Part shown: piece by piece, positions 26,871 through 29,506 of the stretch
How the letters are laid out: every line of letters begins with the position of its first letter
How positions within the stretch are numbered: position 1 is the first letter of the stretch
NCBI RefSeq assembly: GCF_000328685.1
Contig: NC_019974.1
Location: 921,001-985,000 of the forward strand
Direction: 5' to 3'
From: Natronococcus occultus SP4
GTDB lineage: Archaea > Halobacteriota > Halobacteria > Halobacteriales > Natrialbaceae
DNA length: 64,000 nt
Program-made: the position numbers and the translations under genes
The notes under the pieces: model-generated
The model's input: the letters and a program-made list of their open reading frames with translations, nothing else
Databases searched by the model: none
What the model was told of the DNA's origin: nothing

Positions 26871-26896
26871 CCCACACCCCTCGTTCAGAGTGAAAG
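26871..26896 (-). other. Origin recognition box-like element A
   Basis: Minus-strand core TTTCACTCTGAACGAGGGG with a following TGTGGG tail, lying between gdh and the 3' end of orc1/cdc6. It matches element E exactly over 17 bases and elements B, C and D with few changes. It shows that boxes lie on both sides of the initiator gene. Confidence 0.75.
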
Positions 26897-26942
26897 ATTT
26901 GTGAGAGAGCCCTCGCCCCCTTTTCCGTCGTCGGTCGACTGT

Positions 26943-27022
26943 CTTCGCTCCGTCTCGGCTCTCTTCGCTCCGTCTCGGCTCTCTTCGCTCCGTCTCGGCT
27001 CTCTTCGCTCCGTCTCGGCTCT
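26943..27022. repeat. Tandem repeat, 4 perfect copies of a 20-bp unit
   Basis: CTTCGCTCCGTCTCGGCTCT repeated four times without a mismatch, in the gap between gdh and orc1/cdc6. Not a multiple of 3 and not in a gene. Perfect identity implies recent expansion. Confidence 0.95.
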
Positions 27023-27045
27023 CTTTGCCTTCATCGATTGATCGA

Positions 27046-27185
27046 TCGAGTCACTACAAGGACGTCGAGCGACGCGAACCGCTACGGAACCGTCGAGAGG
27101 CTCGAACCGATACGAGAACGTCGAGAAGCTCGGATCAATACGGGAACGTCGAGAACCGCGAATCGCTACGAAAACGTCGAAAGAT
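27046..27185. repeat. Five degenerate 28-bp tandem units overlapping the orc1/cdc6 3' end
   Basis: CGTCGAG (CGTCGAA in the last) recurs at 27063, 27091, 27119, 27147 and 27175, exactly 28 bp apart. The rest of each unit is like CGAACCGCTACGGRAACG. The last unit runs 20 nt into the coding end of the initiator gene. No spacers separate the units, so it is not a CRISPR. Position beside the origin suggests iterons or an expanded segment. Confidence 0.85.
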
Positions 27186-28449
27186 CGACGCGGCCGCGGG
27201 TCGAGCCGTCGGTGTCGGTGAGTTTGTCGTACGGCGGCAGCTCTCCGAGCGAGTCGTCCCGCCGAACCGCCTTGACGATGTGTTTCGGATCGGTCACCAG
27301 CCGGTGGAGAAGGTAACTCCCCTGAGAGCGACCACCACCCGTCTTCTCCGACTCGATGACACCCAGGAACGCCTGCTCTTTGAGCTGGCGGTAGAGGCCG
27401 TTCTCGGTGATCGGATCGGTCGCGACCAGCTCGCAGATATCGGCGTAGCGCTCGTAGATCTCGCGGGTCTTGTAGGTCTCGCGATCCCCAGTGACGATAC
27501 AGCTTGCCAGCGCGTACAGTGCCAGCTTCGCGTGGACGGTCGCTCCGCTGGTGAGCTCCTCGATCCGATTGATCTCGGCGACCTCCTGGGCCTGCTTGAT
27601 ATGACGTTCCGAAACCGCTTCCGAGGTCGTCCGACGGGCGAGCTCGCCGGCCTCCTTGAGGATCTCGATTGCCTTGCGCGCGTCGCCGTGTTTCTTCGCC
27701 GCCAGCGCCGCACAGAGCTCGATCGTTCCGTCCTCGAGGACGTCGGGCTGGAAGGCGTCCTCGCGGTTGCGCATGATCTCTCGGAGCTGGGCGGCGTCGT
27801 AGGGGTGGAAAAACAGCTCCCGGTGGCCGAAGCTGCTGTCGATGCGCTCGTCTAAGGTCTCGCGGTACTGGACCTTGTTACTGATCCCGATGACACCGAT
27901 GTAGGTGTCGGTCTTGCGTGCCTCGCGGGCCCGGGAGAGCTGCATCAAAATGTTGCTGTTGTCGAGCTTGTCGATCTCGTCGAGGATCACGATCACCGAG
28001 TCGAAAAACTCCTCGAGGATCGACCAGATGTGCTGGTAGTACTCCATCGTTCCGACCCCGCGGACCGGGATGTGGTCGTCGTAGCTGGTCTGGTCGGCGA
28101 GACTGAGCGCCAGCTGGCGGGTCGCCCGCGTCTCGGTGTTGGCCTCCGAGCAGTCGACGTAGAGGACGTCGCAGTCGATCTCGTTGTCCTCGGCAGCGTC
28201 CCGGGCTCGCGTCGCGACGTGGCGGGAGATGAGGCTCTTCCCGGTCCCGGTCTTGCCGTAGATCATTACGTTGTTCGGTGGGTCGCCCCGCGTGATCGCC
28301 CCGATTTCGGCGGCGACGGACTGGATCTCGTCGTCCCGACCGACGATCCGGTCCTCCTCGGGGACGTGGCCGACGTGCAGGAGTTCTTTCCGATTGAAGA
28401 TCGGATCCTGCGACTGGAAGAGAGGATCCCCACCGGCCTGTTCGGTCAT
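27166..28449 (-). CDS. cdc6: Orc1/Cdc6 family replication initiator
   Basis: 427 residues. AAA+ domain: Walker A GKTGTGKS (65-72), Walker B VIVILDEID with D157/E158, sensor 1 in IGVIGISNKV, arginine-finger region DERIDSSFG. A C-terminal winged-helix domain (about residues 330-425, LYRQLKEQAFLGVIESEK and YLLHRLV) binds origin boxes. It should recognise the box elements around it, open the AT-rich region and recruit MCM. The gene is divergent from the origin spacer, the standard layout in haloarchaea where each origin is linked to its own initiator. No truncation seen. Confidence 0.96.
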   Translation of the reverse strand: MTEQAGGDPLFQSQDPIFNRKELLHVGHVPEEDRIVGRDDEIQSVAAEIGAITRGDPPNNVMIYGKTGTGKSLISRHVATRARDAAEDNEIDCDVLYVDCSEANTETRATRQLALSLADQTSYDDHIPVRGVGTMEYYQHIWSILEEFFDSVIVILDEIDKLDNSNILMQLSRAREARKTDTYIGVIGISNKVQYRETLDERIDSSFGHRELFFHPYDAAQLREIMRNREDAFQPDVLEDGTIELCAALAAKKHGDARKAIEILKEAGELARRTTSEAVSERHIKQAQEVAEINRIEELTSGATVHAKLALYALASCIVTGDRETYKTREIYERYADICELVATDPITENGLYRQLKEQAFLGVIESEKTGGGRSQGSYLLHRLVTDPKHIVKAVRRDDSLGELPPYDKLTDTDGSTRGRVDLSTFS

Positions 28450-28776: not shown

Positions 28777-28813
28777 ACCCCACCCCACCCCCACCCCTCG
28801 TTCAGACTGAAAC
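28777..28813 (-). other. Origin recognition box-like element B
   Basis: Minus-strand TTTCAGTCTGAACGAGGGG followed by a G-rich tail TGGGGGTGGGG. Two bases differ from the common core. The core end faces the AT-rich region and the G tail points to the initiator gene. Confidence 0.8.
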
Positions 28814-28824
28814 GGCCCGAGAAG

Positions 28825-28849
28825 GTGGGGGGTGGGGGTGGGGCGGGGG
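28825..28849 (+). other. G-tract (possible G-quadruplex) beside box B
   Basis: Runs of 6, 5, 4 and 5 guanines separated by single T or C bases in 25 nt. It starts 11 nt after box B, whose own tail is C-rich on this strand, so the two G/C tracts are inverted relative to each other and could also pair as a hairpin. Confidence 0.7.
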
Positions 28850-28902
28850 TCCGAAGGTGGATCGAGACCGTGGTACTTCATTCGCGCACAGAAGACAGAC
28901 GT

Positions 28903-28944
28903 ATTCCAGATATCCGATAGAGAGATTCCAGACGTCCGATAGAG
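28903..28944. repeat. Direct repeat pair in the origin region
   Basis: ATTCCAGATATCCGATAGAG (28903-28922) and ATTCCAGACGTCCGATAGAG (28925-28944) match in 18 of 20 positions with a 22-bp period. A further short pair, TGGAAATC at 28993 and 29004, lies just beyond. Possible accessory protein sites. Confidence 0.75.
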
Positions 28945-29140
28945 CTTCCATCGTTGTTTGGCGCCGTCGATAGCAGCCGGGTGTACTGCCTGTGGAAATC
29001 GAATGGAAATCCAACGTGGTGCGAGAATTGACAGGAGGGAAAAGCTCGGAACGACGCTCTCCGAGAGGAAACGCCTCATGGTCAACGCTGCCGTGATTTG
29101 GCAGTTTCTCGACTAATCCCTCACACACTGCTCCAAGGCC

Positions 29141-29268
29141 TACTAGCTAGTATTATATCTTATGGTATAGGTAGTAGCTTCCTATACCACAGTTATAATA
29201 ATATACAAAATATCCAAATGTGTTGTTTAGTGTTACCTATCTAGATCTAGCTCTTTCTAGGTTACTAG
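29141..29268. other. AT-rich duplex-unwinding region
   Basis: A stretch far richer in A+T than anything else in the window, with runs such as AGTTATAATAATATACAAAA. It contains palindromes TACTAGCTAGTA (29141-29152) and CTAGATCTAG (29241-29250) and the inverted repeat TGGTATAGG/CCTATACCA (29163-29171 and 29181-29189). It lies between boxes B and C, the position of the unwinding element in known archaeal origins. Confidence 0.8.
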
Positions 29269-29369
29269 CGGTCCAGCCGCTCAGCTCCTCGAATACGCGG
29301 CTTCGTCCCTGTCGAGGATTTCCCTTCCTTCCCTTCCCCCTCCCCGGGGTGGGGATTCTCGTTCGGCCG

Positions 29370-29399
29370 TTTTCACTCTGAATCGGGGGTGGGGGTGGG
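29370..29399 (+). other. Origin recognition box-like element C
   Basis: Plus-strand TTTTCACTCTGAATCGGGGG followed by TGGGGGTGGG. The core faces the AT-rich region and the G tail points away, mirror-image to box B. Confidence 0.8.
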
Positions 29400-29431
29400 A
29401 AGGGTCGTCTCGAGACGGATCCGCCGCTTCT

Positions 29432-29459
29432 CCCCCCCACACCCAACTCAGAGTGAAAT
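29432..29459 (-). other. Origin recognition box-like element D
   Basis: Minus-strand ATTTCACTCTGAGTTGGG with tail TGTGGGGGGG. The half nearest the G tail diverges from the consensus, but TTTCACTCTGA is intact. Confidence 0.7.
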
Positions 29460-29486
29460 CACCACCCACTCCGTCGCTCGATCTCG

Positions 29487-29506
29487 CTTCACTCTGAACG
29501 AGGGGA
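29487..29506 (+). other. Origin recognition box-like element E
   Basis: Plus-strand CTTCACTCTGAACGAGGGG, the same core as box A, but the G tail stops after four G. It is about 90 nt before the Mrp-like gene and may also affect its promoter. Confidence 0.75.

Follow-up and report, generated by a model that had tools for sequence, protein, structure and literature searches.

A predicted orc1/cdc6-linked replication origin in Natronococcus occultus SP4 whose putative Orc binding boxes vary with the initiator clade

Since the work of Wu et al. (2012; PMC3528665) it has been known that ORBs fall into families, one particular to each Orc family. At the haloarchaeal origins described there, as at the locus reported here, Orc-linked boxes bearing a G-string are inverted around an AT-rich stretch, and the ORB sequence follows the Orc family. 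The groups set out in that work were limited to homologues with 80% identity or more, whereas the present comparison covers 125 genomes of the family, homologues of 74-77% identity and a sister clade of 51-54%. The motif itself may already have been drawn in their Figure 2B; the ORB family principle is not new, and what we add is a testable correspondence between the recognition helix and the box bases. A second precedent is the oriC2-cdc6E/oriC2D region of Haloarcula hispanica (PMC3936714), where ORBs lie on both sides of the initiator gene, as here, with eleven of them downstream at oriC2D against usually one at the loci studied here; titration is the role that work puts forward for downstream ORBs. 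The same account describes an AT-rich element with ORBs on its flanks, recognition of the G-string through the AAA+ domain, a requirement of the origins for their cognate cdc6 genes and, at oriC1, G-strings that are essential; the same frame has been published for Sulfolobus (PMC12141716). Natrinema J7 has predicted origins, oriC5 and oriC6, on either side of one cdc6 gene (PMC5350488). We considered equivalence to this pair and dropped it, the gap of about 1.2 kb giving no clear fit to the orc gene studied here. Literature searches on the letters of the core gave, among the matches listed, titles unrelated to archaeal origins, and a search combining the organism name with origin terms found no report on a Natronococcus origin.

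The window, that is, the whole stretch of 64,000 nucleotides analysed (G000:C1:921001-985000), comes from a genome of 4,314,118 bases in three contigs that groups with a genus group including Natronococcus jeotgali and N. amylolyticus. The boxes lie in and near an intergenic region that adjoins a gene of the orc1/cdc6 type, whose product has AAA+ and winged-helix domains, and the following features can be read directly from the DNA:

26877-26895, minus strand: downstream box, with the exact core TTTCACTCTGAACGAGGGG, downstream of the orc gene
27166-28449, minus strand: orc1/cdc6 initiator gene, 427 amino acids, AAA+ plus winged helix (NCBIfam TIGR02928, 4.7e-117)
28778-28848, no strand: inverted repeat rich in G, its two arms (28778-28797 and 28829-28848) 95% complementary; the G tail of the proximal box forms the left arm
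28794-28812, minus strand: proximal box TTTCAGTCTGAACGAGGGG, G tail toward orc, to about 28777
29141-29240, no strand: AT-rich candidate unwinding element separating the proximal box from the distal ones; its 28% GC is the minimum for any 100 bp in the intergenic region
29371-29389, plus strand: distal box TTTCACTCTGAATCGGGGG, G tail to about 29404
29440-29458, minus strand: distal box TTTCACTCTGAGTTGGGTG, the most divergent copy
29487-29505, plus strand: distal box CTTCACTCTGAACGAGGGG, with a short G tail (only GGGG before the G run ends)

The initial annotation counted five boxes between 28777 and 29506. Only four are present there, and a scan allowing up to three mismatches found no further box in that interval; the fifth exists, but outside it, at 26877-26895, and is the only exact copy in the window of the 19-mer given in that annotation. 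The asymmetric G tail was rightly noted. The dyad was described as imperfect, but TTCA-3 bp-TGAA is fully symmetrical (4+4) in all of the five boxes but one, the copy at 29440, which has TGAG. With up to three mismatches the 19-mer has four matches against a mean of 0.02 in shuffled sequence, and four were reached in none of 100 shuffles. The 11-mer core alone, with two mismatches, matches 24 times against a mean of 22.45, which is chance level, so that the G tail is needed for specificity. Exact TTTCASWCTGA occurs six times in the 4.31 Mb of the genome, four of them at this locus, and the two other copies (C1:301526 and C1:2920799) lack a G tail. The boxes at 28794 (minus) and 29371 (plus) are inverted around 29141-29240 with their G tails pointing outward. 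The G-rich repeat at 28778-28848 resembles the enhancer repeat, likewise G-rich, of oriC1 in H. hispanica (PMC3936714); by a simple pattern, similar strings of G and C runs occur upstream of orc at all six loci tested in the Natronococcus group. A short tandem repeat with a unit of about 20 bp, tctcttcgctccgtctcggc, was also seen at 26940-27030, between the glutamate dehydrogenase (GDH) and orc genes.

Our preferred reading, to which we give a probability of roughly 0.85, is that the locus is an orc1/cdc6-linked haloarchaeal chromosomal origin with Orc binding boxes, in which initiator and boxes co-evolve as one module. Boxes, 28% GC stretch and initiator gene together are predicted to form an ordinary haloarchaeal ORB/DUE origin, and at every point testable by sequence the locus fits the published ORB/DUE frame.

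The structure model of the Orc protein (mean pLDDT 85.8) aligns with the A. pernix ORC1 structure 2v1u_A (VIA Z 34.4, rmsd 4.2, 377 residues aligned) and with S. solfataricus Orc1 2qby_A (Z 32.5, rmsd 3.9, 362 aligned), which are also its phmmer matches and which, by their titles, are DNA complexes. On this model the recognition helix would be residues 349-361 of the winged helix, and the wing residues 365-384. In solved complexes the winged helix reads the box core. We infer that a monomer of the 27166-28449 product most likely occupies each box, its winged helix reading the TTCA-3 bp-TGAA core and its AAA+ domain touching the asymmetric G tail, which would set the orientation. Orc bound at the proximal and first distal boxes would then melt the AT-rich stretch between them and load MCM there, from which the origin would fire; the conserved downstream box is probably accessory, serving in titration or autoregulation. 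Orc and boxes would evolve together, position 11 of the box being A here and G in the sister clade, alongside four changes in the helix.

Evidence for such a module comes from the distribution of the box across the family. An orthologue, defined by an E value below 1e-170, is present in 60 of the 125 genomes, seven further genomes with matches of only 52-56% identity being counted as lacking it. The strict core TTTCASTCTGAAYNNGGGG was found in 60/60 genomes with the orthologue and in just 3/65 without, and the same pattern read backwards in 0/125, figures in which the genomes are related and so represent fewer than 125 independent trials. Among the matches listed, nearly all occurrences of the strict core are no more than about 2.3 kb from the orthologue, those away from it being in G024, G077, G034:C63, G052:C78, G053:C41 and G055:C35:390354; the G034:C63 exception is probably the same locus split over contigs.

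At all 35 named orthologue loci boxes are present, usually as a distal cluster, a proximal box about 130-340 bp upstream and a downstream box, the last within 400 bp of the gene at 31 of the 35. The pattern used in this layout scan fixed box positions 8-11, and the selection criterion of the scans accounts for part of the G-tail signal. By that pattern eight loci (L048, L050, L052, L062, L066, L070, L074 and L084) gave no proximal match; L053 and L083 gave no downstream match, and in L056 and L080 the downstream box is 1.5-2.6 kb away. The homologues of 74-77% identity, in Halegenticoccus, Halobellus and Halogeometricum, keep ...CTCTGAAC, and in two of them, the 75% homologue L103 and the Halobellus ramosii plasmid locus L150, boxes lie solely downstream of the gene. 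The same box thus adjoins homologues of 74-96% identity, none of which was found beside an unrelated box, and the suggestion that the specificity is private to this one origin does not hold: it belongs, on these comparisons, to the Orc clade.

Several of these loci have features of their own. At L150 five tandem boxes with an iteron-like spacing of 53-54 bp lie 42-255 bp downstream of the 76.7% orc homologue. Natronorubrum bangense has a chromosomal and a plasmid copy of the origin (L061 and L064), the plasmid being of 828 kb, and the box positions are the same in both. A scan of the viral_contigs set with TTNCASTCTNRAYGAGGGGTG gave no match; this pattern demands GAGGGGTG, so looser boxes could escape it.

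The three genomes that have the core without the gene deserve attention. In G007 and G024 the boxes lie directly between the same GDH gene and a gene for a CitE-like aldolase, both genes named by eye, with two intact boxes about 130 bp apart in G007, and in G024 one intact box with two sites that look decayed by eye; in G077 a single box sits in an unrelated place. A CitE-like homologue (65-91%) is also found upstream of orc, on the side of the distal boxes, at 19 of the 37 named loci searched (L048-L084); none was found in the region of the window. The parsimonious reading is that in G007 and G024 the orc gene and the AT-rich stretch were lost from between flanking boxes.

The N. occultus genome itself holds many other initiators, with 18 tblastn matches to orc loci, some of them fragments of one gene. 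A repeated, G-tailed, box-like core was found at nine of the 16 orc-like loci searched, this locus included, the other eight being:

L002: ATACAGCGGCACCG
L003: TCACCGGAAACGTGG
L004: GTTACATCCGCGAGG
L005: TCATCTGAAATCCGG
L006: TCATTTCGCACACGG
L008: TAACAGCGGAAGTAGTGGGG
L009: CTCCGGAAACAGTGG
L012, oriC1-type: TCGAGTGGAAACGG

The same search for repeated cores gave simple or tandem repeats, or nothing convincing, at L007, L010, L011 and L013-L016. At L010, repeats of 42 bp (TTCTTTGTTCCGCAGTGGGTGTG...) are arrayed at 391-684 bp upstream of another orc of this genome, possibly as the iterons of a different initiator, and the core at L008 is similar to an element that Wu et al. printed (TAACAGCGGAAACAGTGGGG..., PMC3528665). 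As that work describes for other haloarchaea, several distinct putative ORB families are thus found in one genome, the box sequence being common within an Orc family and different between families.

The classic oriC1 ORB has a dyad of the TTCC-GGAA form. It shares with the present boxes the Orc fold, a G tail and a similar half-site dyad. In this genome, however, the oriC1-type core, GTGGAAAC or similar, sits at L012 and the core here is CTCTGAACG, which places the locus outside the oriC1 family and bears out the remark in the initial annotation that the core is unlike the form known from other origins. Also related to the Orc protein are the plasmid initiators of the Orc4 type (pNRC200 orc4, L158), which are about 49% identical and share the helix end KEQAFLG but have the helix SVRRFRDILKEQAFLG and a repeated ACGACGGAAACG where the present loci have CTCTGAACGAGG; at five such loci (about 49%) our box was not found, ACGACGGAAACG being repeated in its place.

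This abundance of initiators lends some credit to a second reading, in which Orc binds the boxes and the origin is dormant or minor, firing rarely or only under stress or on loss of oriC1. Another orc locus, L012, is of the oriC1 type; of seven predicted H. hispanica origins, two lacked ARS activity (PMC3528665); no clear inflection is visible at the locus in GC or keto skew within +/-200 kb; and the gene is absent from 65 of the 125 family genomes and hence dispensable. The skew result and this absence also count against the origin module as such. However, boxes, AT-rich stretch and gene have been retained together in 60 genomes of the family, and one genome that lost the gene has boxes with a decayed look, both of which argue for continuing use. 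We consider dormancy a serious possibility, short of even odds.

Distinctly less probable is that the boxes serve mainly in gene regulation or in titration of the initiator, by autoregulation of orc or as a sink like oriC2D, with a secondary role as origin. The frequent downstream box fits such a use; the downstream ORB cluster of H. hispanica likely titrates Cdc6E (PMC3936714), and an archaeal Orc1-2 that is a regulator and not an initiator is known (PMC9738581). So does a lone G-tailed box with the same core that lies away from the orthologue, near position 1500, in three Natrialba-type genomes (L109, L111 and L127), in surroundings 79-94% identical among the three, about 55-90 bp upstream of a small gene that has, by eye, a ribbon-helix-helix look. 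A pure origin role leaves these single ectopic boxes unexplained, and they could mark an Orc-regulated gene or a sink. Yet boxes inverted around an AT-rich stretch, and homologues that serve as orc1/cdc6 proteins of plasmids, fit an origin better. Finally, G-rich runs are abundant in this intergenic region and the bare 11-mer is at chance level, but the excess of 19-mer matches over shuffled sequence and the strict core in every orthologue genome refute chance or low-complexity repeats as the source of the boxes.

We return to the origin module and to the correspondence that it offers between protein and DNA. The sister clade (51-54% identity, often on plasmids) has a box of the form ...CTCT[G/T]GAC, and de novo k-mer counting recovered TT[A/T]CACTCT[G/T]GACGAGGGGTG beside 16 of 18 homologues of 47-54%. 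When scans left positions 3, 10 and 11 free, positions 10-11 were GA in 156 of 164 boxes at the 35 orthologue loci, in 8/8 boxes at three loci of 74-75% identity and in all five boxes of L150. At the 16 sister loci they were TG or GG in 91 of 95 boxes, and likewise in 47/48 boxes at eight further plasmid loci of the sister clade, some of them closely related; GA stood there in 0/143 sister boxes. The other two of the 18 loci, L100 and L101 (47%), yielded a single box between them in these scans.

The proteins differ in step with the boxes. Residues 350-352 and 355 read NGL..Q in 39/39 members of this clade and HRV..L in 16/16 of the sister (in L154, another sister, residue 352 is I), so that the fixed helix changes going with the box shift are N350H, G351R, L352V and Q355L, while KEQAFLG and the wing TGGGR are nearly unchanged. 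The basic pair at the start of the helix is HR in the sister clade and RR in six of the 12 aligned paralogues of the N. occultus genome, against NG in the Orc studied here. It is conceivable, and we propose it tentatively, as something we would bet against by a modest margin, that N350-G351, with L352 and Q355, replaced the basic pair and so made A, in place of G, the preferred base at position 11. In the tree the two clades are sisters with support 98/99, that of the present Orc on a long stem, and about 68 other residues differ between them in fixed or nearly fixed form; the clade difference amounts to about one evolutionary event, and the link between helix and base is therefore a correlation. 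We do not put forward as established the simpler rule that Arg351 reads G11, since RR Orcs adjoin differently spaced boxes.

Haloarchaeal genomes encode numerous Orc proteins, and most of what is known about how each one locates its proper origin comes from genetics. Genomes that keep boxes and have lost the gene display how such an origin gets dismantled, and two sister clades that differ by four fixed helix residues and by essentially one box base make a recognition rule testable by a small swap. If the switch is true, changing a small number of residues in the helix could redirect an initiator to different origins.
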